Positions 1 through 51,588 of a stretch of 64,000 nt of DNA are shown piece by piece. The stretch lies in NCBI GenBank assembly GCA_037501455.1, contig CM074860.1:45518501-45582500 (forward strand), in the 5' to 3' direction. Below the pieces are notes generated by a model, which saw nothing but the letters and a program-made list of their open reading frames with translations, was not told the DNA's origin and did not search any database. The position numbers were made by a program, and so were the translations under genes. This stretch comes from Lantana camara. Its lineage: Eukaryota > Streptophyta > Magnoliopsida > Lamiales > Verbenaceae. Position 1 is the first letter of the stretch. Every line of letters starts with the position of its first letter.

Positions 1-1017
1 CGACTGACGAAATCGGCACATTTTCTAGTTGTTCGGATGTCGGATAAGGTACCTAAATTGGCTAAGAAATATGTTGATGAAATTGTCCGACTTCATGGAG
101 TACCAGTTAGCATTGTATCAGATCGGGATCCGAGGTTTACTTCTAGATTTTGGCAAGAATTGCAAAGGAATCTGGGCACAAGGCTTCAATTCAGCACAGC
201 TTTCCATCCTCAGACAGACGGGCAATCGGAGAGATTAATTAAGTATTTGGAGGATATGTTGAGAGCATGTGCATTGGATTTTTCGAGTTCGTGGAACGAA
301 CAATTGCCTTTGATTGAATTCGCCTATAATAACAGCTTTCAAGCATCGATAGAAATGGCTCCATATGAGGCTCTCTACGGACGGAAATGCAGATCACCGT
401 TGTTCTTTGATTTGGAGGAATGGAATTGGACGAAGCAAGAGGGTGTGAAACGAGGAGAGAATAAGGAAAAACCCTCTAAGGCCGTGCAAGAGGCAATTGA
501 TAAGGTTCAAATAATCAGACAACGAATGAAAGCAGCCCAGGACAGACAGAAAAGCTATGCCGATCATCGAAGGAAAGATCTTCAGTTTGAGATTGGTGTA
601 GGGTATTCTTGAAAGCCTCACCTCGTAAGGGATTTTCGAGGATTGGAAAAGGAGGGAAATTGAATCCTCGGTATCTAGGACCGTATGAAATTTTGGAGAA
701 AATTGGAGATACGGCCTATCGTTTGGACCTACCACCGAGTTTGACCGGAATCCATAATGTATTTCATGTGTCTCAGCTTCGGAAATATTATCCGGATGAA
801 TCGGAAGTTATTCCCGTTGAGGAAATAGAGTTAGAACCGAATCTCACCTTCGTTCAAAAGCCGATTAAGATTTTGATCGTAAATTTCAAGAGCTTTGAAA
901 TCGGCAGATCCCATTAGTTAAAGTCTTATGGAGAAGTGATAAAACGGAAGAGGCTATGTGGGAGACGGAGGATAAGATGAAGAGATTTCATCCCGAGTTG
1001 TTTCCGAGTGATCAATG
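1..1017 (+). pseudogene. Ty3/gypsy pol 3' end: integrase and chromodomain-like tail, broken
   Basis: This is the 3' end of a gypsy polyprotein, entered inside the integrase catalytic domain. The frame from 37 shows the second catalytic Asp in SDRDPRF and the catalytic Glu in DGQSER, then the conserved [15 protein letters not shown] region. Near 600 one base appears to be missing and reading moves to the frame of 609-917 (ASPRKGF, YLGPYEIL, HNVFHVSQLRKYYPDE). Near 870 another single base is lost. A third stretch, about 868-1017, then encodes the chromodomain-like tail (IPLVKVLW, MWETEDKMKRFHPELF) after an in-frame TGA. The enzyme would have inserted element cDNA into chromosomes, with the tail probably guiding targeting in chromatin. 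The two frameshifts and the stop make it non-functional. It leads straight into a polypurine tract and the LTR at 1052, so strand and clade are secure. Confidence 0.93.
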
Positions 1018-1051
1018 AATCCGAGGACGGATTCTTTTAAGGGGGAGAGGT
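1016..1051 (+). other. Hairpin plus polypurine tract (plus-strand primer), gypsy-I
   Basis: GAATCCG-AGGA-CGGATTC forms a 7-bp stem with a 4-nt loop right at the pol stop codon. It is followed by TTTTAAGGGGGAGAGG, the polypurine tract that primes second-strand DNA synthesis next to the 3' LTR. The same hairpin-tract order occurs in N1, N2, A and B. Confidence 0.85.
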
Positions 1052-3802
1052 TGTGACGCCCCGATATTTCGGTCGTACAGGTATGACTTAATTGTTTACC
1101 AAATTGCGCAAAATAATTATTTTTCGTGTTTATATAGTAATTCTATTTTAAATGCATTATATGTTATTTACTTTATTTTATTGTTGTTAGTATACTTATA
1201 TTTATCTAATTGTTAATTGTGTGAGTAATTTAATGTTAAGTATTTTGTGAATTCTTTACAAATTGATAAGTATTGCATAAATTGAACTTGATTGCAACAT
1301 GAATTACTTTCCCGAATTTGACTTAATTTAGTTATGACCTTAATTGAGCATTCATGAAATTTGAGTACTTAATTGTATTGGATTTAATTGATTACATTTC
1401 AAAAGATTGGGGTTTCATTTGCATAACTTATTAATTTGGAGGACTTAATAGCAAATTTGGCCATTTCTTCTTAATGCAAAGCAGCATATCACGTTCCATT
1501 TCTTCCTTTCTTTCATACATACATTACATACACTCTTGCTCTTGCTCTCCAAGCCAACCGATCAAACCCTTGCGAAAGTGGAGGAAAATTTCATCTTTCA
1601 AGCATTATAATTGTGAGTTTTGTGATCATTCAAGCATCATCAACATCATCTCTTTTTCTCATCTCCCATTTCTTGCATTTGAGGTATTTTTGGAACTTTG
1701 ATGAATTTCTTGGATTTATGTGCTAGATAGGGCTTGGCTATATGTTGGTTAATGTGTGTAATTGTTATTGGAAATATGTTTAGGAACTTTGAGCTCAAGT
1801 TGTATGCATTTATCTTGTGAAGTTTGGACTTGGAAGCATGAATGAGTATGTGGGTTTCATTTGATGATTCTTGATGATCTAACATGGAAATGGATGTTTG
1901 TTTGAATTGATATTGATTTATATGTAAGTTAGTATGTTTATTGCATGGAATATATGGGTTTGAACTTGAGAATTTGGTGTTTTGGGATGGTTGTTGTTGC
2001 TGTCACGTTGATGCCCTGTTTTTTTTCCTGCTACGCACAGTGACACGGGCGTGTCACTTTTCTTTTTTTCAGCGTGACACGGGGGTGCATGCTTGGTTGG
2101 GCTGATTTTCTGTACCTTGACACGGGGGTGTCACGGTTTGCTTTGTTTTTGTGACACGGGCGTGTCACCTTATTTTCATGCGTGATTGTCCGCTGTACCG
2201 TGACACGGGGGTGTCACGGCTTAGTGTATTGAGGTGACACGGGCGTGTCACCCTCTGTTTTTCATGCATTCTCTTTGCATGCTATTGTACATGCATGTGT
2301 TTTATATATATTGGACATGTATTAAATGTTATTTTATTTAATTGAATATATGTAATTGTTTATTTCCAATTTGAATGCGATTTGACTTGTGCTTCGATTT
2401 TATATGAAGTTTTGAATCAATGTGTTTGAAAGTGTGGAATTATGAGCTCGAATGAATTGAACAAGTGATTGAATGACTTGATTATATGATTTGATTTCTT
2501 AATAGTGCTCATGAACATCTCATAGCATAATCTTATCTTTTATACATTTATATCATGATCATTGCATTGCCGAGCGTCTTATTTGGTCATATTGAGTCTC
2601 ACTTCACCGTTCTTGCACAGATTTTGATCACGTTGGAGACGAGGCCAGTCAGTGAGGCTCGTGTTTGCTCCTTTTTGCGGTTTAAGGTGGGTTTCTCTTC
2701 TACTTAGATAAAACGACCCGAAATATCTCCCTATGTGAAAAGTTTTAAGCCAAAGTAATACGATATATATATATTTTGAGCCTTTTATCGAGTAAATGAT
2801 TGCAAACGTAAAGCCCTTATTTCTTGAACCCTACCTAATGTTTTGGCAAGAATGAATGAATGTTATGCACGAATGGGGCCCAGGGACTTAGTGTGAGTGG
2901 CTATCCGGGGAGGCACGGGCCGACGGTGATCCCTCACACTAGTTCCACCAAGTAACGGCGTAACCGGACCTCGTTAGAAGTTAGCGAGGAATGGACGCTG
3001 AGCGCCATCTGGGGAGTCATATAGCCCCTTTTGGTCAATGAATGGGTGGTCGGGCCTTGCAAACCCACCACCAAACCGGAGGAAGAAGGTGTAAATGTTA
3101 ATGAATGTGCACAAAAGATTGATTGCATGAAAAGAATGAATGAATGTTTAAATGATTTACACAAGGTGTTGGTTGGAGATAATGCACGCCCACTCGCCGG
3201 GCCAATAATGACCTAATGTAATTGATTCGTTATAATCCCTTTTGATGATTTATTTTCACCCACTTGGGAAATTCTTCAAACACCTCACTTGGGATTATAG
3301 CGTGCATGTGATTGTTCAATTACCGTCATATATTCTATTTATACCCTGTTTTATACCCACCAGTCCCCTTTGGACTGAACCCGTTTGGTTTGCAGTTGTT
3401 TTATGCAGGTGTTGAGGGAGCTAGGCGGGAATACGAGTCCTAGGTCTTACATTCGTCTCTAGCTCTGTATTTTGAGTCTTACACTTGCATACTTTTATCT
3501 TGATCATTGTATATGAATATTGATTGGAGCGTACTTGTTTGAGCCGTGATGGCAAGTGATGTTGTATGTGAATAATTTTTGGAGCTTGGATGCTCATGGT
3601 ATATATATATATGGTATATGTTCGTTTATTGCTTCCGCTGTAATGTTTTATGTTGTTATATGGTTTTAAGGGTTAGCCCGCCTAGCTTAGAGTGTGTGTT
3701 TGTCCCCGTTCGCCGTGATTTGGCTCGGGTATAGATCGTCCATTTCATAATCGGGTCAGGTCTCGGTACGGGGGATGTGACGCCTTGCGCTCGGGTGTTA
3801 CA
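1052..3802 (+). mobile_element. LTR-I, 3' LTR of gypsy-I (2.75 kb)
   Basis: The LTR begins TGTGACGCCCCG after the polypurine tract and ends GGTGTTACA. It is long for a plant gypsy LTR. An array of GTGACAC palindromes starts about 1 kb in (2040-2251). Downstream, a pyrimidine run and GCAG precede GAGCTAGGCGGG near 3418, with the reverse complement CCCGCCTAGC near 3678. The right flank TTCGA (3803-3807) is the predicted TSD. The element's left part lies outside the window. It carries no coding capacity; open frames inside it are short and unsupported. Confidence 0.88.
2040..2251 (+). repeat. Array of six GTGACAC-GGGS-GTGTCAC palindromes in LTR-I
   Basis: Units start near 2040, 2074, 2117, 2151, 2199 and 2234. 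The consensus is GTGACACGGGCGTGTCAC or GTGACACGGGGGTGTCAC. One unit extends to 9-bp arms (CCGTGACAC/GTGTCACGG). The second unit has a damaged right arm. Spacers of 16-30 bp are not alike, so this is not a simple tandem repeat. Confidence 0.88.
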
Positions 3803-6908: not shown

Positions 6909-9856
6909 GCAAAACCGGTGTTCTTGAGTCATGTCTGAGTCAGTTAGGTTGCACGGTATAGGAACAACTTGTGAATGTGTGCATTGCATCGATCTTGAAC
7001 ATGAATTTGGCTAGACTATCTGTTGCATTTACATAAGGATCCTTGCATTAATTGTTGAAAATGTGTCATGAGCATGCACTAATCGCATGCATCTACTCTT
7101 GAAGTAAGCTGTGATTTATAGGTTATGGAGATAATATCAAACCACGGCCAAGTTCGACGATAAAGAAGATCGATTGCAAACTTTTCTGAGACATGGAAGA
7201 TGGGCAGGATACTCTGGGAAGAATGTAGAGAATTAGAGATGTGAGACTTCCCAAATGGAGCTAGAGTCAAGGATGAGGATTCGGAATGGGAAGATTGAAT
7301 CTAGAGATGCGATGGCAGAGAGACATTTGGTGAAATCGGAATAGGAGTTAATCATGGGATTGTTGGGACTCAAAAGACTAATTCATGAGAATCTGCTACT
7401 TGGAGTGTTTTAATTGGATTCAGCAAGATCGGTCAACCTAAAGAATGAAGTGCACGAACCTTGAAGATATTTTGATCCCGGATGGGATCGTTGAAGAGGT
7501 CTCAATAACTAGGAGAGACTAAGATAAAATAGGTCCGGTAGGAGCTGTGTATCTGGGGTCGACAAGAAGGATTTCTGATTAAGCCTAGTGAATTGAAATC
7601 AAGTCTGTCAAAGTTAAGACCGGGAAGAGTTGGACTTGGGTGCTCTGGATTTTTGATCGTGATGGGAAACTCATAAACAATAGTCACGGTAATCTTGAGC
7701 AAGGTGTTGAGTGGGAGATGAGCTTGTTTTTCCAAGACCAAGCTGAATTGTCATGTTGTGAAGTTGAAATGGAAGATATGAAGCAACAAATGGAAACGGT
7801 AAAGAAAGGCAACCACTCCTTGAAAGGAAATCATGCGCTCAAATGTAAGCAGTGGGAGGTGAATTGAACTTTCGAAAGGGTAAGTGCGGGATTCTTGATT
7901 GAGACGACGATTGGAAGTAAAGGTCGAATTTAGAGAATAGATTGGATGCTAACTCCTTGGAAGTGGAAGATACAAGTTGATTTATAAAGATGCATGGGAA
8001 TCTCGAAGACCGTGGGAAAGGCAAGGAATAATTACCAAGTCAAAGTAACCGCGGGACTTGGAGTAGCAAGGAAAAGCTGTCGAGCTAACTACTTACCCCA
8101 TTGGTGACAGGTTCCAAAGCATTCATAGCACGTGCATCATATTTTGCATTAATTATTTATTCTCTTGATCTTATGTTATTCGTGCATTTCTAATTGGTTT
8201 CGTTGCGCTAAGGTATTGTATAATTGCTTGATGTAAACGTGACCCATGCATGGTCATTTTAACCCAGCATGCATTTTAGTGTTTACTTGATAGGAAGTTC
8301 TTTCGCCTCAACTATCAAGTATCAGTTCAACCGAGCCGCATCTGAGTTATAAGGAAGAGAAATAATAGGATGACGTTAGAAGGAAGGTGAACTTGGGAAA
8401 TAAGAACTTCTATTAAGGGATAGGTTAACGGAAACAAGGATTCGGAAGGAGAGGTGAGACTAGATTTCCGGACAAGATTAAGAAAGGAGTTTCGGACATC
8501 AAGAGAACTGGGGAAAGAGTTGAAAGGCCAAATCCTTGATTTCTATGTCAGTTAAACTTCACCTAATGGGATTTACGCATCGAGAATTTCGATAAAAGAA
8601 GAATCAATGGAGTTCAACCCGGGACAACAGAAATTTAAGGGGGAGAGCACGACCGAAGAACAAATTGGACGATGGAAAAGGTGCTCGAAGAAATATTTTA
8701 GTGGGAATGACGAAATTACAAATTAAGGAAGACCTGGAAGTCCTATTAGTGATGATCGGAGATAACTAAGGTGGCGTGAATGGTTAAGTGTTAAGAGGAG
8801 AACTAAGTTATTAAATTCGGGTTGAAGTCCATCATTGGGAATGGAGGAAATGGTTTGGAGAATATTCTTATGTGTAGAATATGGATCTGGGGGTAACAAA
8901 ATTATAATGGAGTTTTTGTGAACCCTAAGTCAGAATTGACAAGAGAGAGAGTCGAATCCAGTTAGCATATAATGAAATGATGGCGATCCAGAGTAATCCA
9001 ATAAAGTACACAGGGGGTTCAATAATGACAATATTACCAAGTCTTCGGTTAGTCCCACGTTAATTCGGAAGAAACCAAATCGGAGAAGATGATCATTAGA
9101 GGATTTACATCGAACTTCAAGAGTCATCAAGAACACTCTATCTTCGATTCAAGAAATGTGGGGCCAGATACCGAATAACCCTAAGGGGTTAAAGAGTATG
9201 AATAGATAACATGAACGGAAGATGGGAAGAGGATTCGTGTTAAGGTAGATCCTAATAACGAATACCTCTAGGTAGGGATTGAATCGTCAAGGTGGTCAGG
9301 GGTAGTTATTCTTGAGGATATTTTAAACTCTGATATGAGTAAGATAGTAGCTATGGATCTAATATTGAGACAGATGGTTTAAGGATATTCGGGGAGGTCA
9401 AGCTCGGTTAATTAAAAAGAATTGGATGGTCGAACGAAGATTGTGGGAAATGGTGAAGACTGGAAATAGTACAAGTCAGAACGGATCCAAGAGTATGATC
9501 CTTAAAGGATTTATCAATAGCTTCACCGAGGAACCTTGAAGAGGTTCAAGACAAGCTGACCACTGAGCTATCTTCAGGATAGATCCTACACTGGACAACG
9601 ACAACTCTCAGTTCTAAACTTTGAGACTTCGGTGAACGGTACTTATAGCATTCATGATACATGCATCCATGCAAAATTAACTTTTATAAACTTTATGTTA
9701 AGTGCTTTGTTCTGCACTGTGTTAAATTACTTGGAATAATTGGAAACCAATATGGGAGATATTTATTACTTGCTATGGGTGCCTTACGTGATTTTAATCT
9801 TGGTTTTGCGTGAGTTGCTTGGGAGTATTGGAGATTTCCTTGCTTTATTTTTGGTT
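6909..9856 (+). other. N1 internal region, no coding capacity seen
   Basis: About 2.9 kb of purine-rich sequence with frequent stops in all frames. The longest open frame (7640-7867, 75 codons) has no family I recognise and is not supported by the homologous N3 fragment. The first 1 kb is shared with N3. The only clear signal is the internal TTTAAGGGGGAGAGC at 8634. Confidence 0.7.
8634..8648 (+). other. N1 internal (central) polypurine tract
   Basis: TTTAAGGGGGAGAGC repeats the core of the 3' polypurine tract (TTTTAAGGGGGAGAGA at 10061) about 1.4 kb upstream of it. N2 has a matching internal copy at 23061-23077. Confidence 0.65.
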
Positions 9857-10020
9857 AAGAGACGGGGATTCTCTTATTTTTGTTTGGGAGACGGGGTACT
9901 CTCTTTGCTTGCGAGAGACGGGGTTCTCTCATTGTTGTTGGAGAGACGGGGTTCTCTCATTGCTGTTCGAGAGACGGGGCTCTCTCCTTGTTGCTTGTGA
10001 GAGACGGGGAATCTCTCATT
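9857..10020 (+). repeat. N1 array of six GAGAGA-CGGGGN-TCTCTC hairpins
   Basis: Six units are spaced 24-34 bp apart. The core CGGGG is constant. Arms include TAAGAGA/TCTCTTA, GAGAGA/TCTCTC and TGAGAGA/TCTCTCA, so a change in one arm is matched in the other. The array ends about 20 bp before the pre-tract hairpin. Confidence 0.88.
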
Positions 10021-10041: not shown

Positions 10042-10077
10042 GAATCCGAGGACGGATTCCTTTTAAGGGGGAGAGAT
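10042..10077 (+). other. N1 hairpin and 3' polypurine tract
   Basis: GAATCCG-AGGA-CGGATTC is followed by CTTTTAAGGGGGAGAGAT and then the LTR TGTAACG. Confidence 0.88.
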
Positions 10078-11427: not shown

Positions 11428-14051
11428 TGTAACGCCCCAGATTTTTATTTATAATATCTTATGTCCAAAATAATTTTATAAATTATATTTTATAATACTT
11501 TCATGAAATTCATATTAAACTTATAATTTACCTCATAACTTGACAATATTTAATTCGTGAATTAATTACCGAAAATGATTTAATTGTCAAACTTGGCCTA
11601 TATGTTCATTCTTTTAAATTTCGGGACCAAATTTCATAACATTTTCAAGGACTCAATCGATCAATTCCTAAAGCTTTCCATCCTTAGTTGCATGACTTAG
11701 ATATTTGAGGGACTAAAGTGCAAATTAGACATTTCAAAACTTGATTGATCGGTATATCATCTCCTAGCTTCCAAAATTATTTCATTCTTGATCTTTCTTC
11801 ATAGTTGCTTCATCTCTCTCTCTCTCGGTATTAAGAAGAAAAGGGAAGGAAGTGATTTTCATCCATTCCATCAAGAATTTCAAGTATTAATCCAAGTTTG
11901 GGAAGCTTGATCATCACCCTCATCCATCTTCTTCCTTTCTTTCATTTCCAAGGTTGGTTGTGCATGAACTCTTAATTCTTGAGCATATATGATTGAGCTA
12001 GGGTTTAGAATTTATATGTTAAATGAGTCAATTGGAGTTGGAAGCATGATTATGTGATTATATCATAAATTATGGCATGATTTGTGCATGAATTAGTTGA
12101 GAATTGAGCTTGAATGATCAAGTGTGATCATGAGTGTGGAATCATGAATTCTTGATGATCTTGTGTGCTTTGAGTGTTTAAGGGTTATGAGATTATTTCT
12201 TGAACCTATATGCATCATATTTCCAGAAAAACATGAATTGGTTGATTGAAATTGGAACTTTGGTTGCTTTGTTATGCATTCCCGTAGCCCTCCCCTGTTT
12301 TTCTCTGTTCTTCATATTTGCAGAAACAGGGAACGACCGTTCCCAGCCTCAAGGCATTGTGGGAACGGGCGTTCCCACCTTTTCAAATGATTTGGGCGGC
12401 CGAGCATGGGAACGGCCGTTCCCATTTTGGCCTTGCGCCGGAAGGGCCGTTCCCAGCTTCCGCGCGTTTTAAAAGGGGAAATCGTTGGTGCGTTTATTGG
12501 GGTTATGGGAACGACCGTTCCCATTTTACAAAGGGGTCCGGAACGGCCGTTCCCACCACGCTGACAGAACAAAAATGACTGCATAAAATTACATTTTTAG
12601 CCCCTCGATCCAACGACTTCTTTGACCCCGAATTGCCGTAATATGTACTCTTATGATGTGAAACAACATGTTATCATACCACATTGCATTTTCGTGGTCA
12701 TCTCGATATATTTCCGCCGTTCGTCACTTTTTGGGCATTTTAGGTCATGTCTCATGTATAAGTGTCGTGTTTGCACAGGTCACGAGGGTAGGGACGAGGA
12801 GCAAGCCCCGTAGGCCGTGCCTACTTGTCTTTGTCGGTATAGGTGAGGTTTCATTGTTAGTTACGTAGAACCCGTATACCCCCTTATGTGATACTTTGGC
12901 CAAAATAGTATTTACGGTTATATATTTCTATAAATCATTGATCATTTCAAGCCAGGTTCAAGTAAGCAAGCAAGCAAGCAAGTCAGGTACTGTTTCATGC
13001 ATGTTTAGGCGAGTAGCATGACGGTTACGTTTGGGCCCGAGGGTAGTGACTAGAGCCAACCGGGAAAGCAAGGGCTGACGGGTAACTCTGGCGCTATCCT
13101 CACCTGTTAGGGGTCACCCCTGAATCCACTAGGAGATTAGTGGAGGAAGGAGCTCCGGGCTTAGGGATTCATGTACCCTCTGCTCAATGAGATTGGATGT
13201 TGGGGCCTTGCAATCCCTTCATCAAACCGGAGGGAAAAGGAGACTGGGGACGAGTCCGGCACCACGGATGCGCCTCGGGTTATTGCATGATTATCATTTC
13301 ATGAATGTGTTATATGAATACACTATCGCACGATCGCACAATAAGTGAATTGCATGATCACCTATTGAATATTAAACAAGCAAGCATGTTCATGTACATT
13401 TGGAGTAAGGTTGGAGATTGCCCTCACTCGCCGGGGCCATGTATTGATTGATTGCATGAAACGATCCAGTAATTAATATTAGTAGTTGTAATCTCGGGCG
13501 AGTCTCTATTATTGTGAACGTATAATGTTTTAATTATAAAACCTTACCCGAGGTTATAACTTGCATGTGATTGCGCTAATATATATTTATGCCCCTCACT
13601 CAGTCTTCGGTAGACTGATACTTCACCTTTCAGGTACTTGAGAGCCGGTCGTGCTAGGCGGGAGTCTGGTCCAGTCTTGCATTGTCACGAGTTTAGCAGT
13701 GCACCATCATGTATATATATTTTACTACGTCTCATGTCATGTCTATTGTTATCACATTTGGAATACTTGATCATGTATAAGAGATGCTAAGGTATTGATA
13801 ATTAGTTTGGTATCTATATGTATCTATCTGATAAATATGGTACCTATATGTATATATATGAATTAATGCTTCCGCTTTTAATTGTTATGTCGTGATTTTG
13901 TATTGTCTTGGGGTTTAGTCCCGCCTAGCTCGTCTTTTCTGTTCTTTGTCACCCGTTCGCTATCGGTTAGTTCATGTACGGATTGTCCATTTCGTATGTG
14001 GATCAGCCTATAGTGCGGGGGTGTGGTATCCCTACGTATAGGGGTGCTACA
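11428..14051 (+). mobile_element. LTR-III, solo LTR related to gypsy B (2.62 kb)
   Basis: It begins TGTAACGCCCCAG, ends GGGTGCTACA, and is flanked by CATTA (11423-11427, 14052-14056). It resembles the gypsy B LTR on the opposite strand, sharing the text around GGCATTGTGGGAACG and the TTGCACAGGTCACGAGGG segment, but is clearly diverged. Features in order: possible splice donor AAG/GTTGG near 11953; palindrome array 12329-12554; acceptor-like TTGCACAG at 12778; an AAGC microsatellite near 12965; acceptor-like CTTTCAG at 13633 followed by GTGCTAGGCGGGA; its inverted copy at 13919; terminal hairpin 13958-14017. No coding sequence. Confidence 0.93.
12329..12554 (+). repeat. LTR-III array of six GGGAACG-NN-CGTTCCC palindromes
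   Basis: Units lie near 12329, 12361, 12408, 12440, 12507 and 12540. Arms GGGAA/TTCCC are constant, with centres CGACCG, CGGGCG or CGGCCG. Four of six are full 16-mers. The fourth has GGAAGGGCCGTTCCC. Spacers of 16-52 bp are unrelated in sequence. Confidence 0.9.
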
Positions 14052-14251: not shown

Positions 14252-14383
14252 TGACACGGCCGTGTTGGTATTTAGGCATAAGGTGACACGACCGTGTCAC
14301 ATTTATTTAAATCAGCAGCCCCAACTCGAGAGCTCAACACGGCCGTGTTAACTTTTCAAAGGAATCGGACACGGTCGTGTTGG
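14252..14383 (-). repeat. LTR-II array of four ACACGRCCGTGT palindromes
   Basis: Units near 14252, 14283, 14334 and 14367 have the centre CGGCCG, CGACCG or CGGTCG. Arms switch together: TGACAC/GTGTCA in one, AACAC/GTGTT in others. The array lies about 1.25 kb from the LTR start, close to the position seen in the other LTRs. Confidence 0.82.
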
Positions 14384-15772: not shown

Positions 15773-16476
15773 TGTAGCGCCCCCTAACACTACAACTCCC
15801 GCACCGTACTACCCTCGAGTGGATGTGAGACCTAGCACCCGAGAAATACTACGGCGAACGGTATAGACGGTACTTAAGTAGAGCGTAGGATAAAATGCAG
15901 CGGAAGATAAAAGAATTTAAAATTTGCAACAAGCAACATAATAACACAAAGAATAGTGCATGATATTGTAAGGGGGTACTATGGTAGTGTAGTGTAAGGA
16001 GTTAATGTATAAGAGCAATTTATTAGCAATATATACTTGATCAGGATTAAATGCTCTTAATCTAAACCTGATCTAATAAATATGACACCTATAGCTTCAA
16101 GATACCTCTAGGTGTCGTTGTCCTTGCTCCCTGAAATCATGTGTTTGAAACAGGCGATGAATTAGTCAAAGTGACTAAGTGAAGGAAGATTAGATTTAGA
16201 TATATATTATTATATATATAGATATATATTTATATAAAATGATAGCAATAGGATATAGCAAATATGATACGGTTCGTAAGTTTAAAACCGGGATAGGGGT
16301 ATTTGGATTTTAGTTTATAATTGATGAACCGTTTGATAAAAGATTTGTACCGCCTGCAAGTAAGGCGTCTCCCTCCAATCTCCTTAAAATATTTGTAAAA
16401 TAGTACCGGGCTGATCAAGGCACCAGTACTTTAATAAAACTAAATATGATAATAACTCCGCAACACCGTAGTGTCA

Positions 16477-16660
16477 GTAGGGGAGCAAACCCTACCGACG
16501 ATATGTAATATGTGGGAGGAAGCTATCTCTCCCAGGGAGGTTATTCTCCCTTGTAAGTCTCTTGGCGTGGAGTAACTATCCTCCAGCTAAACCACTACCA
16601 AGAGTTGGTGGCGGTCTGTAGCACCAACAATACCCTCGGCCCGATGCCTTCCGAGTATTG
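16477..16660 (-). repeat. Hairpin cluster in gypsy A LTR
   Basis: Successive short inverted repeats: GTAGGG/CCCTAC (16477-16495), GGGAG/CTCCC (16513-16532), AGGGAG/CTCCCT (16534-16552), TGGAG/CTCCA near 16568, an imperfect CCACTACCAA/TTGGTGG (16592-16611) and CAATACCCTCGG/CCGAGTATTG (16628-16660). A second copy lies in the 5' LTR near 47949-48130. The cores are less constant than in the other arrays. Confidence 0.5.
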
Positions 16661-17286: not shown

Positions 17287-17317
<31 letters not shown>

Positions 17318-18729: not shown

Positions 18730-21386
18730 TGTAGCACCCCTTGACACGTGGAGGTGCCACACCCCCGCACTATAGATCAATTCACATACGAAATGGTCAA
18801 TCCGTACATGAACCAACCTATAGCGAACGGGTGACAATGCAATACTCGACAAGCTAGGCGGGATAACTAAAACATGCAATAAGATAACGCGGAAGCATAA
18901 AATAATTTCTAACAAATAGTTTCATTTATTCAATCATGATATTTCTCATTTATCAAGTAGTGCATAATCTAGATTATCATCTTCCATTAAAGAATAACAA
19001 TAATTACAATTCCAGAATTAATACTCTTAATTAAATGCACGAACCACGGATGACACGACTACATGAACTGGACCCGACTCGACTCACTCCCGCCTAGCGT
19101 GCACCTGTAATACCTGAAAGGTGGAGGCGTCAGTCTGTGAAGACCGAGTGAGGGGTTTACATATATATTAGCGCAGATAACATGCAAGCTATATTCTCGG
19201 GTAAAGGTTTATAAAAGATAATTATACATGTTCAATAATAACATAGCTTCGCCCGAGAATACAACTGTCAATATTAAATACTTGTTCATTATCATGCAAT
19301 CAATCAATACATGGCCCCGGCGAGTGAGGGCGGTCTCCAACCTTACTCCCAATGAACATGAACATGCTTGCTTGTTTATTAATCACGAGGTGATCATGCA
19401 ATCAATTATCGTGCTATCGTGCAATAGTGTAATCAGGTAACATATTCATGGAGTAACAATCATGAAATAACCCGAGGCGCATCCGTGGTGCCGGACTCGT
19501 CCCCAGTCTCCTTCTCCCTCCAATGATGGGAAGGTAGCTAGCCTTCACCATCCACGACATATTGAGCAGAGGGTACATGAATCCCTAAGCCCGGAGCTCC
19601 TTCCTCCACTAACCTCCTAGTGGATTCAGGGGTGACCCCAAATGTGGTGAGGATAGCACCAGAGTTACCCGTCAGCCCTTGCTTTCCCGGTTGGCTCTAG
19701 TCACTACCCTCGGGCCCATCGTGAACGATCATGCTACTCGCCTAAACATGCTTGCAATCATGAACATGGACAATCTTGGCTTGCTTGCTTGAAACATGAC
19801 TTGATAAAATGTAGCTATCAATCGTGATCAATAGTTTATGGAAATTATAAATATAATTACCTTTTGGCCGAAATATCACATAAGGGATATACGGGTTCTA
19901 TGTAACTAGAAATTAAACCTCACCTGACAGGCGACACATGACTCGTGAATGCGTGGACGTGCTCATGAGCCACAATCTCCGCCCTGGAGAGTAACTGGAC
20001 AAGAAACGGGACAATGTGCGTGCATGAGACCATAATTCAATCATATTATTCATATAATGACGCACGGCATAAGCGTACACGAGACATCGAGCAATACACA
20101 ATGTAGCATGAAAACATGTTGTTTCGACATATAATCAATCATATAATAGCAATTCGGGATCAAATAGGCCATTGGAACGAGGGGTGGAAATTGTAATTTT
20201 GTGTAGAAACTTTCTGCACTTCCAGTGGCCTGGGAACGGCCGTTCCGGGCTTTAGTACAAAAATGGGAAGGGCCGTTCCCCAGTCCCGAAGCGGCTCCCG
20301 AAGATGGGAACGACCGTTCCGGCTTGCAAGCCAAAATGGGAACGGGCGTTCCCGTCCTCCGCCAAGCAAAGCGTTCAAACAATGGGAACGGCTGTTCCCC
20401 AATTGCAAAGGGGACGGGAACGGCCGTTCCCGTTACACAGAAGAACAAAGAACAGAGCAGAACAGGGGATGCTCTCGGGACAAAACCAAGCATCCCCAAA
20501 CCTACCAAATTCATCACAACATGCAAGGATTCTTGGAAATATGCAAGTATACATGTTCAATATACATTAGTATGCAACCAAAACACATAACTCATGCCTT
20601 AATCTCCATAATTACCAACTTTAGCATAAATACAAATTTATCATATAATCTCATATTCTTCAAGAATCATACATGAATTTCAAGTCTAAAGCATAAGATC
20701 ATGCTTCTAACAATTAGAGCACATAATATTCAAGTAAACCTCAAACCCTAGCTTCATGAATTATTATCAAGAATTCACATAATTTCCATGTCTACCTAGG
20801 AAGAAAGAAATGGAGTGATATGAGATGATGAGGGTGATGATGATGCTTCCAAGCTCCTAATCCTTTAAGTTCTTTGATGAAAGTGATGAATTCTCCTTTC
20901 TTCCTTGGATGGCAATGGTTCGGTGGTGAAGGAAGCAAAATGAGATGATTGGTATGAAAAATGAAGATGATGATTGAGAGAGATGCATATATCGTGATAT
21001 TTGGGGAAATATGTAATATTTATGTTTCAATCCCCCAAGTTTTGTAAGTCATGCAATTAAGTATAAAAGGTTTGGAAAGTGATCAATTAAGTCCAAAAGA
21101 TATTCATGCAATTTAGTCTTTAAATAAAAGGAAATAAGCAATTAAGGACAATTAGGCAATTAATACAAGTTGGGCAATTAATTCACGTACAATTGAATTC
21201 CATTCGTGCAAGAATTCTCAATTAAAATAAATATCACATAATTTTCACGTAATCATATTGAGTCACAATTTATAAAATTAATATAACACTTATAAATTGA
21301 ATAAATAAAATAATAAAATAAGACCCTAACGCTCGAAACTCACACGTGTCGAGCGTACCTGCCTGTCTGAAATTCGGGGCGTTACA
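18730..21386 (-). repeat. N2 3' LTR
   Basis: It ends (minus strand) with the terminal hairpin at 18766-18825. It carries six palindrome units and the GCTAGGCGGG pair near 18853 and 19096. Confidence 0.95.
20232..20431 (-). repeat. N2 3' LTR palindrome array, six units
   Basis: The units have GGGAA/TTCC(C) arms, with centres CGGCCG, GGGCCG, CGACCG, CGGGCG, CGGCTG and CGGCCG. The fourth unit and its spacer are absent from the other LTR. Confidence 0.9.
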
Positions 21387-21422
21387 ACTCTCTCCCCCTT
21401 AACAGAATCCGTCCTCGGATTC
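21387..21422 (-). other. N2 3' polypurine tract and hairpin
   Basis: The minus strand reads GAATCCG-AGGA-CGGATTC (21405-21422), then TGTTAAGGGGGAGAGAGT next to the LTR. Confidence 0.87.
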
Positions 21423-21631: not shown

Positions 21632-21740
21632 TGAGAGTGCCCCGCCTCTCAAGCAATTAACGAGAGAACCCCGTCTCTCGAGCAAGGAACAAGAGAACCC
21701 CGTCTCTTGACAACCCTGAGAGAATCCCCGTCTCTCACGC
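21632..21740 (-). repeat. N2 array of four hairpins with covarying arms
   Basis: Plus-strand arms are TGAGAG/CTCTCA, CGAGAGA/TCTCTCG, CAAGAGA/TCTCTTG and TGAGAGA/TCTCTCA around a constant CCCCG (sense CGGGG). Each unit has different arms, yet all are fully complementary. The position, just before the 3' tract, matches N1. Confidence 0.9.
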
Positions 21741-24496: not shown

Positions 24497-27107
24497 TGTA
24501 GCACCCCTTGACACGTGGAGGTGCCACACCCCCGCACTATAGATCAATTCACATACGAAATGGTCAATCCGTACATGAACCAACCTATAGCGAACGGGTG
24601 ATAATGCAATACTCGACAAGCTAGGCGGGATAACTAAAACATGCAATAAGATAACGCGGAAGCATAAAATAATTTCTAACAAATAGTTTCATTTATTCAA
24701 TCATGATATTTCTCATTTATCAAGTAGTGCATAATCTAGATTATCATCTTCCATTAAAGAATAACAATAATTACAATTCCAGAATTAATACTCTTAATTA
24801 AATGCACGAACCACGGATGACACGACTACATGAACTGGACCCGACTCGACTCACTCCCGCCTAGCGTGCACCTGCAATACCTGAAAGGTGGAGGCGTCAG
24901 TCTGTGAAGACCGAGTGAGGGGTTTACATATATATTAGCGCAGATAACATGCAAGCTATATTCTCGGGTAAAGGTTTATAAAAGATAATTATACATGTTC
25001 AATAATAACATAGCTTCGCCCGAGAATACAACTGTCAATATTAAATACTTGTTCATTATCATGCAATCAATCAATACATGGCCCCGGCGAGTGAGGGCGG
25101 TCTCCAACCTTACTCCCAATGAACATGAACATGCTTGCTTGTTTATTAATCACGAGGTGATCATGCAATCAATTATCGTGCTATCGTGCAATAGTGTAAT
25201 CAGGTAACATATTCATGGAGTAACAATCATGAAATAACCCGAGGCGCATCCGTGGTGCCGGACTCGTCCCCAGTCTCCTTCTCCCTCCAATGATGGGAAG
25301 GTAGCTAGCCTTCACCATCCACGACATATTGAGCAGAGGGTACATGAATCCCTAAGCCCGGAGCTCCTTCCTCCACTAACCTCCTAGTGGATTCAGGGGT
25401 GACCCCAAATGTGGTGAGGATAGCACCAGAGTTACCCGTCAGCCCTTGCTTTCCCGGTTGGCTCTAGTCACTACCCTCGGGCCCATCGTGAACGATCATG
25501 CTACTCGCCTAAACATGCTTGCAATCATGAACATGGACAATCTTGGCTTGCTTGCTTGAAACATGACTTGATAAAATGTAGCTATCAATCGTGATCAATA
25601 GTTTATGGAAATTATAAATATAATTACCTTTTGGCCGAAATATCACATAAGGGATATACGGGTTCTATGTAACTAGAAATTAAACCTCACCTGACAGGCG
25701 ACACACGACTCGTGAATGCGTGGACGTGCTCATGAGCCACAATCTCCGCCTTGGAGAGTAACTGGACAAGAAACGGGACAATGTGCGTGCATGAGACCAT
25801 AATTCAATCATATTATTCATATAATGACGCACGGCATAAGCGTACACGAGACATCGAGCAATACACAATGTAGCATGAAAACATGTTGTTTCGACATATA
25901 ATCAATCATATAATAGCAATTCGGGATCAAATAGGCCATTGGAACGAGGGGTGGAAATTGTAATTTTGTGCAGAAACTTTCTGCACTTCCAGTGGCCTGG
26001 GAACGGCCGTTCCGGGCTTTAGTACAAAAATGGGAAGGGCCGTTCCCCAGTCCCGAAGCGGCTCCCGAAGATGGGAACGACCGTTCCGGCTTGCAAGCCA
26101 AAATGGGAACGGCTGTTCCCCAATTGCAAAGGGGACGGGAACGGCCGTTCCCGTTACACAGAAGAACAAAGAACAGAGCAGAACAGGGGATGCTCTCGGG
26201 ACAAAACCAAGCATCCCCAAACCTACCAAATTCATCACAACATGCAAGGATTCTTGGAAATATGCAAGTATACATGTTCAATATACATTAGTATGCAACC
26301 AAAACACATAACTCATGCCTTAATCTCCATAATTACCAACTTTAGCATAAATACAAATTTATCATATAATCTCATATTCTTCAAGAATCATACATGAATT
26401 TCAAGTCTAAAGCATAAGATCATGCTTCTAACAATTAGAGCACATAATATTCAAGTAAACCTCAAACCCTAGCTTCATGAATTATTATCAAGAATTCACA
26501 TAATTTCCATGTCTACCTTGGAAGAAAGAAATGGAGTGATATGAGATGATGAGGGTGATGATGATGCTTCCAAGCTCCTAATCCTTTAAGTTCTTTGATG
26601 AAAGTGATGAATTCTCCTTTCTTCCTTGGATGGCAATGGTTCGGTGGTGAAGGAAGCAAAATGAGATGATTGGTATGAAAAATGAAGATGATGATTGAGA
26701 GAGATGCATATATCGTGATATTTGGGGAAATATGTAATATTTATGTTTCAATCCCCCAAGTTTTGTAAGTCATGCAATTAAGTATAAAAGGTTTGGAAAG
26801 TGATCAATTAAGTCCAAAAGATATTCATGCAATTTAGTCTTTAAATAAAAGGAAATAAGCAATTAAGGACAATTAGGCAATTAATACAAGTTGGGCAATT
26901 AATTCACGTACAATTGAATTCCATTCGTGCAAGAATTCTCAATTAAAATAAATATCACATAATTTTCACGTAATCATATTGAGTCACAATTTATAAAATT
27001 AATATAACACTTATAAATTGAATAAATAAAATAATAAAATAAGACCCTAACGCTCGAAACTCACACGTGTCGAGCGTACCTGCCTGTCTGAAATTCGGGG
27101 CGTTACA
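24497..27107 (-). repeat. N2 5' LTR
   Basis: Identical to the 3' LTR apart from the 46-bp indel and a handful of transitions. Its palindrome array has five units. Confidence 0.95.
25999..26152 (-). repeat. N2 5' LTR palindrome array, five units
   Basis: Same as the array at 20232-20431 but missing the CGGGCG unit with its spacer. The indel ends fall within the repeated ATGGGAACGG. Confidence 0.9.
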
Positions 27108-27514: not shown

Positions 27515-27550
27515 ATCTTCCCCCCTTAAAGAGAATCTGTCCTCAGATTC
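27515..27550 (-). other. Gypsy A 3' polypurine tract and hairpin
   Basis: The minus strand reads GAATCTG-AGGA-CAGATTC (27533-27550), then TCTTTAAGGGGGGAAGAT. The stem differs from N1/N2 at a base pair (C-G to T-A), with pairing kept. The stem overlaps the last codons of pol. Confidence 0.87.
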
Positions 27551-33657: not shown

Positions 33658-36313
33658 TGTAGCACCCTAACCCCCAGGGCACTACTTCCCCCGCACTATA
33701 GCCTCGATCCACGTATGAAATGGAAAGTCCATACATAAACCAAAACTATAGCGAACGGGTGACAATATAAATGACGAGCTTGGCGGGACACTCCCCAACC
33801 TAATTAACACAAACATAAATTCAAAAGTGGAAGCAATAAAATCATTCATACATATAGGTACCATATTTACCGAATAGCTACGTATAGATACCAACTTAAC
33901 TATCAATACATTATCATCTCTTACTAATATACATATTCAGTTATTCAAAAAGTACAAATAACGACCATAATATGAGATACCAAAAGTGCTATACATTAAG
34001 GTACGGTACTAGACTCGTGAGAATGCAAAACTCGACCGGACACCTGCCTAGCACGACCAAGCGCTCAAGTACCTGAAAAGTGAAGTATCAGTCTACCGAA
34101 GACTGAGTGAGGGGCAATAAATATATAACACACATCACATGCAAAGTTTTAGCCACGGGTGAAGACTTTGGAAGTGAAATAGATATTTAGTTCAAGAAAC
34201 TCGTTCTTTGCCCGAGATTACAACTAATCATTTTAACATTTTAACTTGAACATTTCATGAACATGTGACCCCGGCGAGTAGGGGCGATTCTCCAACCTTT
34301 ACACCAAACGTGACAATACGTGCTTGCTTTATCAATTCAATACATGATCATATAATTCCATTTAGTGCTCACATAGACAGTTTCATGCTTGAAATCATGC
34401 AATAACCCGAGGATAACCCGACATACCGGATTAATCCCCAGTCTCCTTCTTCCTCCGGTTGATAGTGAGTTTGCAAGGCTCAACTATCCACGACATGTTG
34501 TGTGTAGGGGACATGACCCCCTAGACACGGAACTCCTTCCACCACTAATCTCCTAGTGGCTTCGGGGGTGATTCCAACAATGTGAGGATAATTCATGAGT
34601 TACCCGTCAGCCCTTGCTTTCCCGGTTGGCTCAAGAATTACCCTCAGGCCCATGTGCAATCATGTACTCGCCAAACTTGCTTGAAAATCATGACAATCAT
34701 TACTTGCTTGCTTGAAATATTTATAACTTTGAAAACGTTTATAATTATAATATGTTTTAGCCGAAAATAGCACATAAGGGTTACAAGGTTCGATTTACTC
34801 AAAACAAAACCTCACCTTTCTTTCAAAATAAAATAAGGATATGCTCTACAGAGCCTGCTCCTCGTCCACACCCTCGTGACCTGTGCAAACACGACGTGTA
34901 TACGTGAGACATGACCTAAAATGGACGAAATATGACGAACGGCGGAAGTGTATCGAGATAACGATGAAAATGCAATGTGGCATGATAACATGTTGTTTCA
35001 CTACATATTAGCACATATTATAGCAATCCAGGGTCAAAGAAGTCGTCGGATCGAGGGGCTATTTTCGTTATTTTATGCAGAGAATTTTGTTTTGCAATCC
35101 AGGTGGGAACGGCCGTTCCGGACCCCTTTGGAAAATGGGAACGGTCGTTCCCATGAACCCCCAAAATCGCGCCAACATTTTTCCAATTTAAAAACGCGCC
35201 TAGCTGGGAACGGCCCTTCCAGCACCAAGGCCAAAACGGGAACGACCGTTCCCATGGTCGGCCGCCTAGTTCCATTTGAAAAGGTGGGAACGCCCGTTCC
35301 CACAATGCCTTGAGGCTGGGAACGGTCGTTCCCAGTTTCTGCAACTGAAAGAACAGAGGAAAAACAGAGCATGGCTACGGGAATGCATATCAACAACAAC
35401 AAAACTCCAATTTTGATCAACAAAGGCCATAATTTCTGGTAATATGATGCATCTATATTCACAAGATGATAATATAACATTTAAACACTCAAAGCATGAG
35501 ATATTATCAAGAATTTCAAGTTTCATGCCCATGCTCCCCTTGATCAACAAAGCTCAAATTTTCAATGATTTCATGAATAAATCATGCTATAATTCAACAT
35601 ATATTCACCTAATCATTCTTTGTTCAGCAAATAATCCTCAAAGTACATAATTCATAAACCCTAGCTAACCAAATATGATCAAGAATCATGAAATCATGCA
35701 ACTATCACGTTTGAAGTTCAAGAAGTGAAGAAATGGATGAAGATGATGCTCAAACTTGATTTCTTGAAATCTTTCTTGGAAATTCTTGAGGTAAATGATA
35801 AAATTCTCTTCCCTTTTCTTTCTAGTATGAATCGAGAATGAGGAGCAAGTGTATTTGAGGAAATATTTGATGAAATGAGTATAAGGAAGCTTGGAGATGG
35901 AAATAACGTAACATCCTATTTTTGAAAAATGTGAAACACCAATATTTACGATTTAATCCTTCAATTCATGAAGTTATGCAATTGAGTATTCATGGTTTTA
36001 AAATATGATCAATTGGATCCCTAAAAGATTATGCAATTAGGTCCCTAAAGTTAGAAAAATAATCAAGTAGGGATAATTCGATAATTAAAGCACTCTCGGC
36101 ATTTGTTTCATGCAATAAATATTTTTCCGTGTCATGAAATAATATATCCAATGATATGAATTCAAATAATTTATGTAAACAATGTTTCATGAATTTTATA
36201 AAAATATGAATGCCACGTAAGAATATATTATGAAATTAAAGAACGAAAATAAAATTACGCTCAAAACGCACACGTGGCGTGCTTACCTGTTCATCCGGAA
36301 CCGGGGCGTTACA
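33658..36313 (-). repeat. Gypsy B 3' LTR, duplicate copy 1 (2656 bp)
   Basis: It starts TGTAGCACCCT (plus strand) and ends GGGGCGTTACA. Roughly its first 1.4 kb differs at many sites from the two other B LTRs, which agree there. After the palindrome array all three are about equally similar. Confidence 0.92.
35104..35334 (-). repeat. Gypsy B LTR palindrome array (copy 1), six units
   Basis: Units with GGGAA/TTCC(C) arms and centres CGGCCG, CGGTCG, CGGCCC, CGACCG, CGCCCG and CGGTCG. The third is imperfect. Confidence 0.9.
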
Positions 36314-37572: not shown

Positions 37573-40226
37573 TGTAGCACCCTAACCCCCAGGGCACTAC
37601 ATCCCCCGCACTATAGCCTCGATCCACGTATGAAATGGAAAGTCCATACATAAACCAAAACTATAGCGAACGGGTGACAATAAAAATGACAAGCTAGGCG
37701 GGACACTCCCCAACCTAATTAACACAAACATGAATTCAAAAGCGGAAGCAATAAAATCATTCATACATATAGGTACCATATTTACCGAATAGCTACGTAT
37801 AGATATCAACTTAACTATCAATACATTATCATCTCTTACTAATATACATATTCAGGTATTCAAAAAGTACTAATAACGACCATAAAATGAGATAACAAAA
37901 GTGCTATACATGAAGGTACGGTACTAGACTCGTGAGAATGCAAAACTCGACCGGACACCCGCCTAGCACGACCAAGCGCTCAAGTACCTGAAAAGTGAAG
38001 TATCAGTCTACTGAAGACTGAGTGAGGGGCAATAAATATATAACACACATCACATGCAAGTTGTAGCCTCGGGTGAAGACTTTGGAAGTGAAATAGATAT
38101 TTAGTTCAAGAAACTCGTTCTTTGCCCGAGATTACAACTAATCATTTTAACATTTTAACTTGAACATTTCATGAACATGTGACCCCGGCGAGTAGGGGCG
38201 ATTCTCCAACCTTTACACCAAACGTGACGATACGTGCTTGCTTTATCAATTCAATACATGATCATACAATTCCATTTAGTGCTCACATAGACAGTTTCAT
38301 GCTTGAAATCATGCAATAACCCGAGGATAACCCGACATGCCGGATTAATCCCCAGTCTTCTTCTTCCTCCGGTTGATAGTGAGTTTGCAAGGCTCAACTA
38401 TCCATGACATGTTGTGTGTAGGGGACATGACCCCCTAGACACGGAACTCCTTCCACCACTAATCTCCTAGTGGCTTCGGGGGTGATCCCAATAATGTGAG
38501 GATAATTCAGGAGTTACCCATCAGCCCTTGCTTTCCCGGTTGGCTCAAGAATTACCCTCGGGCCCACGTGCAATCATGTACTCGCTAAACTTTCTTGAAA
38601 ATCATGACAATCATTACTTGCTTGCTTGAAATATTTATAACTTTGAAAACGTTTATAATTATAATATGTTTTAGCCGAAAATAGCACATAAGGGTTATAG
38701 GGTTCGATTTACTCAAAACAAACCTCACCTTTCTTACAAAATAAAACAAGGATATGCTCTACAGAGCCTGCTCCTCGTCCACGCCCTCGTGACATGTGCA
38801 AACACGACGTGTATACGTGAGACATGACCTAAAATGGACCAAATATGATGAACGACGGAAGTGTATCGAGATAACGATGAAAATGCAATGTGGCATGATA
38901 ACATGTTGTTTCACTACATATTAGCACATATTATAGCAATCCGGGGTCAAAGAAGTCATCGGATCGAGGGGCTATTTTCGTTATTTTATGCAGAGAATTT
39001 TGTTCTGCAATCCAGGTGGGAACGGCCGTTCCGGACCCCTTTGGAAAATGGGAACGGTCGTTCCCATGAACCCCCAAAATCGTGCCAACGTTTTTCCAAT
39101 TTAAAAACGCGCCTAGCTGGGAACGGCCCTTCCGGCACCAAGGCCAAAACAGGAACGACCGTTCCCATGGTCGGCCGCCTAGTTCCATTTGAAAAGGTGG
39201 GAACGCCTGTTCCCACAATGCCTTGAGGCTGGGAACGGTCGTTCCCAGTTTCTGCAACTGAAAGAACAGAGGAAAAACAGAGCATGGCTACGGGAATGCA
39301 TATCAACAACAACAAAACTCCAATTTTGATCAACAAAGGCCATAATTTCTGGTAATATGATGCATCTATATTCACAAGATGATAATATAACATTTAAACA
39401 CTCAAAGCATGAGATATTATCAAGAATTTCAAGTTTCATGCCCATGCTCCCCTTGATCAACAAAGCTCAAATTTTCAATGATTTCATGAATAAATCATGC
39501 TATAATTCAACATATATTCACCTAATCATTCTTTGTTCAGCAAATAATCCTCAAAGTACATAATTCATAAACCCTAGCTAACCAAATATGATCAAGAATC
39601 ATGAAATCATGCAACTATCACCTTTGAAGTTCAAGAAGTGAAGAAATGGATGAAGATGATGCTCAAACTTGATTTCTTGAAATCTTTCTTGGAAATTCTT
39701 GAGGTAAATGATAAAATTCTCTTCCCTTTTCTTTCTAGTATGAACCGAGAATGAGGAGCAAGTGTATTTGAGGAAATATTGGATGAAATGAGTATAAGGA
39801 AGCTTGGAGATGGAAATAACGTAACATCCTATTTTTGAAAAATGTGAAACACCAATATTTACGATTTAATCCTTCAATTCATGAAGTTATGCAATTGAGT
39901 ATTCATGGTTTTAAAATATGATCAATTGGATCCCTAAAAGATTATGCAATTAGGTCCCTAAAGTTAGAAAAATAATCAAGTAGGGACAATTCGATAATTA
40001 AAGCACTCTCGGCATTTGTTTCATGCAATAAATATTTTTCCGTGTCATGAAATAATATATCCAATGATATGAATTCAAATAATTTATGTAAACAATGTTT
40101 CATGAATTTAATAAAAATATGAATGCCACGTAAGAATATATTATGAAATTAAAGAACGAAAATAAAATTACGCTCAAAACGCACACGTGGCGTGCTTACC
40201 TGTTCATCCGGAACCGGGGCGTTACA
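37573..40226 (-). repeat. Gypsy B 3' LTR, duplicate copy 2 (2654 bp)
   Basis: Same LTR as 33658-36313, with GTCAA to its left at 37568-37572. Over its first 500 bp it differs from the 5' LTR at only about two positions. Confidence 0.93.
39018..39247 (-). repeat. Gypsy B LTR palindrome array (copy 2), six units
   Basis: Same six units as at 35104-35334. Here the fifth unit has centre CGCCTG, and the fourth has lost one outer G of the left arm. Confidence 0.88.
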
Positions 40227-50529: not shown

Positions 50530-51460
50530 TGTAACGCCCCAATTTTCGGAAGTTCAGGTAAGCACTCCACGAGCGGGTCTTCGGGAGTTGGGAGGTTAAA
50601 TTACTTGTTTGTTCATTTAATTACAAGTTTCATCATATTACTTGCCATATGTTTCCATACATTTATATGAAATATCATTTATATGAATTATATGAAATAA
50701 GTGAAATAAGTGCCATATTTGTATTATATAATCCTTAATTGTCCCTTATGTGAAATTGTGTAATGAGTGTATATCATGACTTGAAGTTAATTGCATCATT
50801 TGTTAGAAATTATACTTATGTGCATCAATTTAAATAAGCAAGGGACTTTTATGCAAATAAGGTTGAATCACATGTTTCCATACAAGACTTAGGATATATC
50901 ATGATTTCCACATTATTCCATTCATTTCTTCTATATTCCAAGAACATAAATCCCACACACACACACCTAGTGGATTACGGTTTTTACACCAAGAAGAGAA
51001 GGAGATTTCATTTCAATTTCAAGCTACATTCTTGAAGGATTCTTGAAGATAGAAGCATCATTAACCTCATATCATCATCTCATCCACCACCTCTTTGATT
51101 CAAGGTAGGAATTGGAGAATTTCATGAAATTCTTGAATATGTGATCAAGCATGAATTTAGGGATTTGTTGAGGAATTCTTGCATGATTGGAGTAGAGGAT
51201 ATGATGATGATGAATTAGAGTGAAAATTGCATGAAAATATTGGAATTCTTGAAGGATGGAAGCATGAGCAAGCATGGGGGGTTTTATGATGATACTTGCC
51301 ATTTTAATGTTTATTCTTGGTTATTTTGTTAGATGCTTGAAGTATGATGCATATTTGATGATTTGAAGCATAAGTTATGGTTGGAGTTTGGTATATTTTG
51401 GTTTGGGGTTGGTTTTGCATGGAAACCCCTGTTTCTCCCCTGTTTTTTCGGTCACGCACA

Positions 51461-51588
51461 GTTGACACGGGGGTGTCAACTTTGCTTTGGGCTGGCGACA
51501 CGGGGGTGCACGTTGGTTTGATTTTCTGTACCGTGACACGGGGGTGTCACGGTTTGCCTTGTATTGACGACACGGGCGTGTCACTTTC
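51461..51588 (+). repeat. LTR-C array of four TGACAC-type palindromes
   Basis: Units near 51461 (AGTTGACAC/GTGTCAACT, 9-bp arms), 51494 (right arm damaged), 51530 (CCGTGACAC/GTGTCACGG) and 51568 (CGACACGGGCGTGTC). The first and third units show compensated arm changes. Confidence 0.85.

Follow-up and report, generated by a model that had tools for sequence, protein, structure and literature searches.

Using a 64-kb stretch of the 1.27 Gb Lantana camara genome (this whole stretch being referred to here as the window), we confirm that arrays of short palindromic units, in which a constant centre is flanked by complementary arms that are swapped between groups of elements, are real and extend beyond the window. 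Base pairing between the arms is well supported as a feature of these units, and a stem-loop is the simplest reading of pairing that is kept without conservation of sequence. We tentatively propose, with somewhat less than even confidence, that the units are short stem-loops of one class, which selection maintains in Ty3/gypsy elements.

Palindrome arrays in nested LTR retrotransposons

Nested LTR retrotransposons fill the window, in which a Pfam scan identified one intact copia frame as well as domains of Ty3/gypsy elements (gag, protease, reverse transcriptase, RNase H and integrase); among the best 120 matches for a gypsy frame and the best 120 for the copia frame, the named proteins were nearly all from plants. 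The coding elements of the window carry the features of Ty3/gypsy elements, i.e., gag-protease-reverse transcriptase-RNase H-integrase, TG..CA LTRs, a primer site and a polypurine tract, an assignment that covers these coding elements and does not extend to N1 and N2 as encoding those domains. The gypsy LTRs begin with TGTAACGCCCC or TGTGACGCCCC, and several copies end in TGCTACA followed by the primer site TGGTATCAGAGC. A Tf2-1-like SH3 domain, and no match to a chromodomain, was found in the pieces scanned for membership of the Tekay/Del chromoviruses. Gypsy B (32592-47633) has the order LTR-internal-LTR-internal-LTR, its three LTRs being approximately 97-99% alike, and a low-GC stretch of 2.5 kb occurs in two copies (16164-18729 and 47633-50158) with 96% identity, each adjoining an LTR end.

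The initial annotation of this DNA had named arrays in LTR-I, LTR-C, LTR-II and the GGGAA and GAGAGA groups, all of which were found in the window:

2039..2252, + strand: LTR-I array, six units, GTGACA/TGTCAC arms, centres CGGGCG or CGGGGG
51460..51582, + strand: LTR-C array, four units (one a half), AGTTGACA, CCGTGACA and other arms, centres CGGGGG/CGGGCG
14252..14383, - strand: LTR-II array, four units whose arms share an ACACG core and vary in their outer bases, centres CGGCCG/CGACCG; LTR start near 15613
12329..12553, + strand: GGGAA/TTCCC array (G12), six units; LTR start 11428
20233..20433, - strand: N2 GGGAA array; LTR 18730-21387
26000..26154, - strand: N2 GGGAA array, in which a stretch covering parts of units 2-3 is absent; LTR 24497-27108
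35106..35335, - strand: gypsy B GGGAA array; LTR 33657-36313
39019..39248, - strand: gypsy B GGGAA array; LTR 37572-40226
46424..46653, - strand: gypsy B GGGAA array; LTR 44977-47633
9856..10018, + strand: N1 GAGAGA/TCTCTC array, CGGGGN centres, internal region approximately 60 bp ahead of the 3' LTR (10078)
about 21640..21740, - strand: N2 GAGAGA/TCTCTC array, CGGGGN centres, internal region ahead of the 3' LTR

Five of the LTR-I units pair well, and the unit near 2083 is without a right arm. The compensated pair of units that had been quoted from LTR-C is present as described. In LTR-II, only one of four units contains the full GTGACAC arm. The GAGAGA arrays have centres of 6-7 nt and are located outside the LTRs, in the internal region, just ahead of the polypurine tract of the 3' LTR. 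In the GGGAA arrays, the off-class centres GGGCCG, CGGCTG and CGGCCC are also present. A protein search with an open frame that crosses an N2 array gave no match.

The copia LTR contains an array of a different kind (60924-60995, with its second LTR copy near 52810-52886), made up of about six palindromes with varying arms centred on CACGTG, an ordinary DNA-binding motif; one of these units has a AGTGACACG arm in common with LTR-I.

A constant centre with exchanged arms

The clustering described by the initial annotation was borne out by comparison with shuffled sequence: clusters, defined as three dyads with a common 5-base arm inside 300 bp, were absent from all 30 sequences obtained by block-wise dinucleotide shuffling of the window, compared with at least five such places in the real window (one being the CACGTG array in the copia LTR), a lower bound in that only the best place was retained per arm. 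Every CGGNCG or CGGGGN on either strand, with no choice made on pairing, was then scored in a systematic genome sample of 27 stretches of 10 kb (270,000 bases; C1-C10 at 5 and 25 Mb, and C1, C2, C3, C5, C7, C8 and C9 at 65 Mb). Arms of at least 5 bp were found in 51 of 503 such places, compared with 30 of 10,631 for centres made of permuted letters, scored in these 27 stretches, a control in which LTR and non-LTR DNA are pooled; with every occurrence of a known arm removed, the figures were 15 of 442 and 22 of 10,502. When all six-base centres that occur 20 times or more (2,060 centres) were ranked by the fraction having 5-bp arms, six of the eight class centres took ranks 1, 4, 5, 6, 8 and 9 (the order being CGGGCG; TATATA and ATATAT; CGGCCG, CGGGGG and CGGTCG; GAGGAC, seventh; and CGGGGT and CGGGGC), and the class centres CGGACG and CGGGGA fell outside the best 16. 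Twelve different 5-base arms were counted around class centres. Since CTACC, CTCCC and AGCTT are single dyads, possibly due to chance, and since AGACA and AAAGA share arrays with TGACA and AGAGA, the independent arm types are fewer, about six or seven.

These arms are exchanged in matched pairs. In the window and the sample together, which contain 641 class centres, we counted 96 matched and 5 mixed pairs, using a list of eight 4-base arms and pairs with both arms listed (101 of the 142 centres having at least one listed arm). Genome-wide, the matched forms GGGAACGNNCGTTCCC, TGACACGNNCGTGTCA and GGTAACGNNCGTTACC occur at 37,901, 13,324 and 5,070 sites, respectively, compared with 2 sites for the mixed GGGAA/TGACA form and 106 (53 + 53) for the mixed GGTAA/GGGAA form, and GACACGGGCGTGTC occurs at 9,009 + 9,095 sites (18,104 places), with none for its reversed control. 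Because the units are related by descent, all of these numbers count copies and not independent changes. A constant centre with exchangeable complementary arms, the central claim of the initial annotation, is therefore backed both by tests blind to pairing and by the matched and mixed counts in the genome; its statement that the two arms must have changed in concert from family to family holds for the overall pattern, without reaching the level of single changes placed on a tree.

Covariation of the arms

Outer arm positions covary inside arrays. When right flanks were permuted among units within the same array (gypsy B and N2 each represented by a single copy, with some inner right-arm letters required and positions 6-8 free), 69 of 126 cells at positions 6-8 were Watson-Crick pairs compared with 53.3 expected, and 0 of 5,000 permutations reached 69; the four less overlapping arrays gave 36 compared with 29.9 expected (P ~0.01). 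In 11 GTGACA-type arrays, chosen on left arm and centre only and with units identical across 8+8 flanking bases dropped, 98 of 168 cells at positions 5-8 paired compared with 69.4 expected (0 of 5,000 permutations), and all four Watson-Crick types were seen at each of positions 5, 7 and 8; four of these arrays (L044-L047) had been taken because both orientations are seen there, and L045-L047 are related. Partners slid by one base also scored above their own permutations, but with far lower pairing (32 cells at +1 in the first test, and 50-51 cells at -1 and +1 in the second). Pooled by family, covariation was significant at some positions only, including outer GGGAA positions where kinship can produce it. 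Conserved letters across the sites of one family, which an array of DNA-binding sites would be expected to show, are seen in the centre and the inner 4-5 arm bases, with the outer bases varying pairwise. The stems are kept by compensatory change, as is expected of a packaging or dimerization signal, with kinship partly controlled.

The pairing is mostly exact. G-U cells numbered 8 compared with 14.5 expected, and A-C cells 11 compared with 16.6, at positions 6-8; the corresponding figures in the GTGACA-type arrays were 14 compared with 17.1 and 10 compared with 14.3, and 21 oriented arrays held 9 G-U and 15 A-C among 456 cells. With G-U no commoner than A-C, there is no sign of the tolerance of G-U that RNA alone would lead one to expect. 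An excess of Watson-Crick cells with both G-U and A-C below expectation is also what a mutational process would leave, in which the template is switched within a quasi-palindrome, in the course of replication or reverse transcription, and one arm is overwritten with a copy of the other, giving complementarity and flipped centres without selection. Flipped centres do occur (see below), and unit 1 of LTR-I and LTR-C can be read as one possible mirrored insertion, of one base per arm (our alignment shows a gap for the left insertion and substitutions for the right). Template switching leaves unexplained, however, the one constant centre across different arms, the like position of the arrays in their LTRs and the conservation of 96% in arms beside 51% in spacers, and one-sided changes persist in near-identical LTR copies. 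We consider it a live but unlikely source of the pairing, which would, if the units are the stem-loop class that we propose, reflect selection and not mutation.

Conservation and position within the LTR

Arms are conserved relative to the spacers between them. Between gypsy B and N2, 69 of 72 arm positions are identical (96%), compared with 53 of 103 in spacers (51%) and 176 of 297 in the flanking LTR, and two other LTR pairs differ in the same direction (71 of 72 compared with 105 of 130, and 70 of 72 compared with 56 of 102). This bears on a further explanation, neutral tandem-repeat growth, by which an ancestral palindrome would have been duplicated with its neighbours and homogenized while remaining functionless. 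The self-match of LTR-I at an offset of approximately 80 bp, and the 28-bp period and similar spacers of the N1 GAGAGA array, are consistent with such growth, but spacers diverge where units do not, changes inside arrays are compensated, and the centre is common to different arms; already disfavoured, this explanation is in our judgement highly improbable.

In 14 of 15 LTRs, with distances taken by hand, approximately 0.9-1.3 kb separate the LTR start and the near edge of the array (LTR-I, LTR-C, LTR-II, G12, N2, B, L017, L020, L026, L030, L033, L038, L039 and L024, for the last of which we used the nearer of two start-like sites and set the orientation from one of the two), the exception being L032, with approximately 1.8 kb from LTR start to array. 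LTRs with GTGACA, GGGAA, GTCG and AATCC arms therefore bear arrays at a like position.

Several further features were observed in these LTRs. In L032, a single element has both an LTR array with GTGACA and GAGACA arms (1763-1802) and, ahead of its 3' LTR, a GAGAGA array (3682-3790). In L024 (8686-8808), two pairs of AAATCCA-type units are each contained within a larger inverted repeat, with outer arms that differ between the two. A block TTGCACAG-RTCACG...GACGAGG, resembling a 3' splice site, is located approximately 200-450 bases past the array in 6 of 15 LTRs (LTR-I near 2611, LTR-C near 52005, and LTRs B1, G12, L017 and L026). As for a possible intron, sites resembling 5' splice sites were found ahead of arrays in 8 of 15 LTRs, which is not above a rough estimate of chance.

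Strand polarity of the centres

In the 21 arrays that could be oriented, the G-rich strand of asymmetric centres is the sense strand of the element in 42 of 43 units; this set is without class centres having fewer than three of five inner pairs, one of any overlapping pair was removed, L036, L040 and L041 were left out as their orientation could not be told, and L042, L043 and L009-L016 were unused. Among 27 groups of at least two exact GACACGGGCGTGTC sites, drawn from the first 100 of the 18,104 places, 10 contain both orientations (minority sites 10 of 75), and flipped centres are also seen in L044-L047; the polarity of the G strand is thus a tendency.

Polarity and symmetry bear on the possibility that the units are sites in double-stranded DNA, i.e., dyads bound by a dimeric protein of the host or the element that controls the LTR promoter or silencing, with arms that drift with the protein as in the VANC/VANDAL system. 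Pairing is symmetric without preference for G-U, many units are near-perfect dyads, the array has a higher CpG ratio than the remainder of its LTR in all five LTRs measured, and the copia LTR here has an array of CACGTG palindromes. VANC arrays, moreover, are described as short motifs that are multiplied by the formation of tandem repeats and differ between families (PMC5735166, from the available part of the text). For a protein site, however, one would expect the letters themselves to be retained and not complementarity alone, and within one arm type all four pair types occur at outer positions; several unrelated arm types share one centre, the centres CGGGGG and CGGGGN are asymmetric, and most arrays have one orientation of the centre (42 of 43 units; 17 of 27 groups). 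We regard binding sites of this kind as a serious explanation, although an unlikely one.

A second stem-loop beside the polypurine tract

The centre ranked seventh in our survey, GAGGAC, marks a second set of dyads, 10 of 12 of which are directly ahead of a polypurine tract. The exceptions are two in L029, near 901 and 1358, where two repeat copies contain GAGGAC dyads with CTAGC and CCAGC arms away from the tract. At the polypurine tract, the arms around GAGGAC are GAATCC/GGATTC, GAATCT/AGATTC or GGACCT/AGGTCC, one further copy has GACGAC, and loops of the GGGGAC type have GAATCT, GGACCT or GGATCT arms. Those located in the window are as follows:

1017..1034, + strand: polypurine-tract stem-loop, GAATCC, loop GAGGAC, GGATTC
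10042..10059, + strand: polypurine-tract stem-loop of N1, fixed-loop class
21405..21422, - strand: polypurine-tract stem-loop of N2, fixed-loop class
27533..27550, - strand: polypurine-tract stem-loop, GAATCT, loop GAGGAC, AGATTC

Further fixed-loop stem-loops (GAGGAC or GGGGAC) are found ahead of the polypurine tract near 36334 and 40247, the latter copy having one broken pair. The 11 stem-loops with six-base centres that we used, of 16 gathered, reduce to four distinct rows in which 24 of 24 cells pair; three of six pairs have changed two-sidedly and none one-sidedly, and the covariation score was reached in 4 of 500 shuffles.

Predicted folding

The predicted RNA folds of six LTR arrays are more stable than those of shuffles on both strands, with z scores that are stronger on the antisense strand in four of them (LTR-I, LTR-C, N2 and B1) and similar on the two strands in LTR-II and G12. 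For the GAGAGA arrays, sense z scores are approximately 0, i.e., no better than shuffles, compared with -6.6 and -4.3 on the antisense strand. Overall, the z score is stronger on the antisense strand in six of eight arrays, whereas absolute energy is lower on the sense strand in seven of eight. Whole arrays are predicted to fold mostly by unit-to-unit pairing and not as separate hairpins; folded singly, each of 12 chosen units gave, on either strand, a hairpin of 6-10 bp whose loop has 4 or 6 bases. Predicted duplexes among these 12 units are mostly stronger inside arm types than across them, but some across types are strong (GGGAA with GGTAA, -24 kcal/mol), and those of GAGAGA with GGGAA are about as good as those of GAGAGA with itself.

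The tolerance of G-U and the structure specific to the sense strand that are expected of a packaging or dimerization signal were therefore not observed in the arrays tested. For the initial annotation, which likened the units to a stem-loop class with a fixed loop, this divides the claim: pairing and the constant centre agree with it, but an RNA form is not well supported, in view of G-U being no commoner than A-C, of the stronger antisense z scores in six of eight arrays and of the flipped centres.

Searches for related sequences

No description of such arrays was found in titles and the openings of abstracts when the literature was searched for the units themselves and for LTR palindromes or inverted repeats, a coverage that most subscription papers fall outside. 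Similar palindromes presumably occur in the LTRs of other plants. In one study, palindromes are reported as targets of insertion and not as arrays (PMC6911290, from the part of the text available). Rfam, at its gathering score, gave 0 matches in the window, and viral contigs gave nothing for the pol protein or the palindrome pattern. Plasmids contained three distant pol matches and prokaryote assemblies eight pol relatives; no such array was seen among the dyads of the latter, few of which reach far into an LTR, so that they do not serve as a negative control. Contigs from prokaryote assemblies (L001-L006) encode Ty3/gypsy pol at 50-58% identity to the query, and are possibly plant contamination.

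A possible role and comparison with known systems

If the units are stem-loops kept by selection, the centre (C GGN C G, or C GGGG N) would be constant because it is read by something, and the arms would be free to change provided that pairing is kept. Arrays of approximately 3-8 such units, located in the LTR at 0.9-1.3 kb and, in certain elements, directly ahead of the polypurine tract as well, might be transcribed and act as RNA in the Gag-dependent handling of genomic RNA, with the G-rich loops bound by Gag as the putative reader. Self-complementary arms could then allow RNAs of the same family to pair for dimerization or packaging, and RNAs of other families would not pair. This role in dimerization or packaging is our best guess, favoured by analogy with retroviruses and Ty3 and held less firmly than the stem-loop class itself; the GAGAGA arrays, located far from the 5' leader, count against the reading as a whole. 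A more far-reaching version, which we put forward as a long shot, would have the arms as a code of self-recognition: the units of an array would bear the arm of their family and genomic RNAs of the same family would pair with each other but not with those of other families present in the cell, a common factor such as Gag would read the centre, and new families would arise when a whole array switches arm.

LTRs diverge fast and are hard to compare across families, and a class with a fixed centre at a like position gives a defined target for studying how the RNAs of plant Ty3/gypsy elements are chosen, paired and packaged. With thousands of copies per arm and several arms in one genome, the arrays also amount to a natural mutagenesis, and a recognition code in the arms, if there is one, would account for the coexistence of many related families that stay unmixed.

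Known systems that invite comparison are the retroviral Psi and DIS, in which several short stem-loops have G-rich or palindromic loops and pairing outweighs the letters of the stem, yeast Ty3, the VANDAL elements of Arabidopsis, the copia element Tnt1, and Retand. Short stem-loops with G-rich or palindromic loops are common to our units, to Psi and DIS, and to the 5' palindrome of Ty3, reported to drive dimerization of genomic RNA in vitro (PMC11381356, available part); unlike these, the units described here form arrays of near-identical, self-complementary predicted hairpins, inside the LTR or ahead of the polypurine tract. The VANC motifs of VANDAL elements are similar in being short, family-specific and multiplied in noncoding parts of the element, where they are reported to co-evolve, but palindromes with swapped arms are not described for them in the available part of that paper (PMC5735166). 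The BII boxes of the Tnt1 promoter, which bind defence-induced factors, are likewise located within a plant LTR, but a fixed centre with exchangeable arms is not described in the part of the report available (PMC3316501). Finally, Retand elements contain family-specific tandem repeats between pol and the 3' LTR, the same place as our GAGAGA arrays, but the accessible portion of that study does not mention palindromic units with a fixed centre (PMC11963269).
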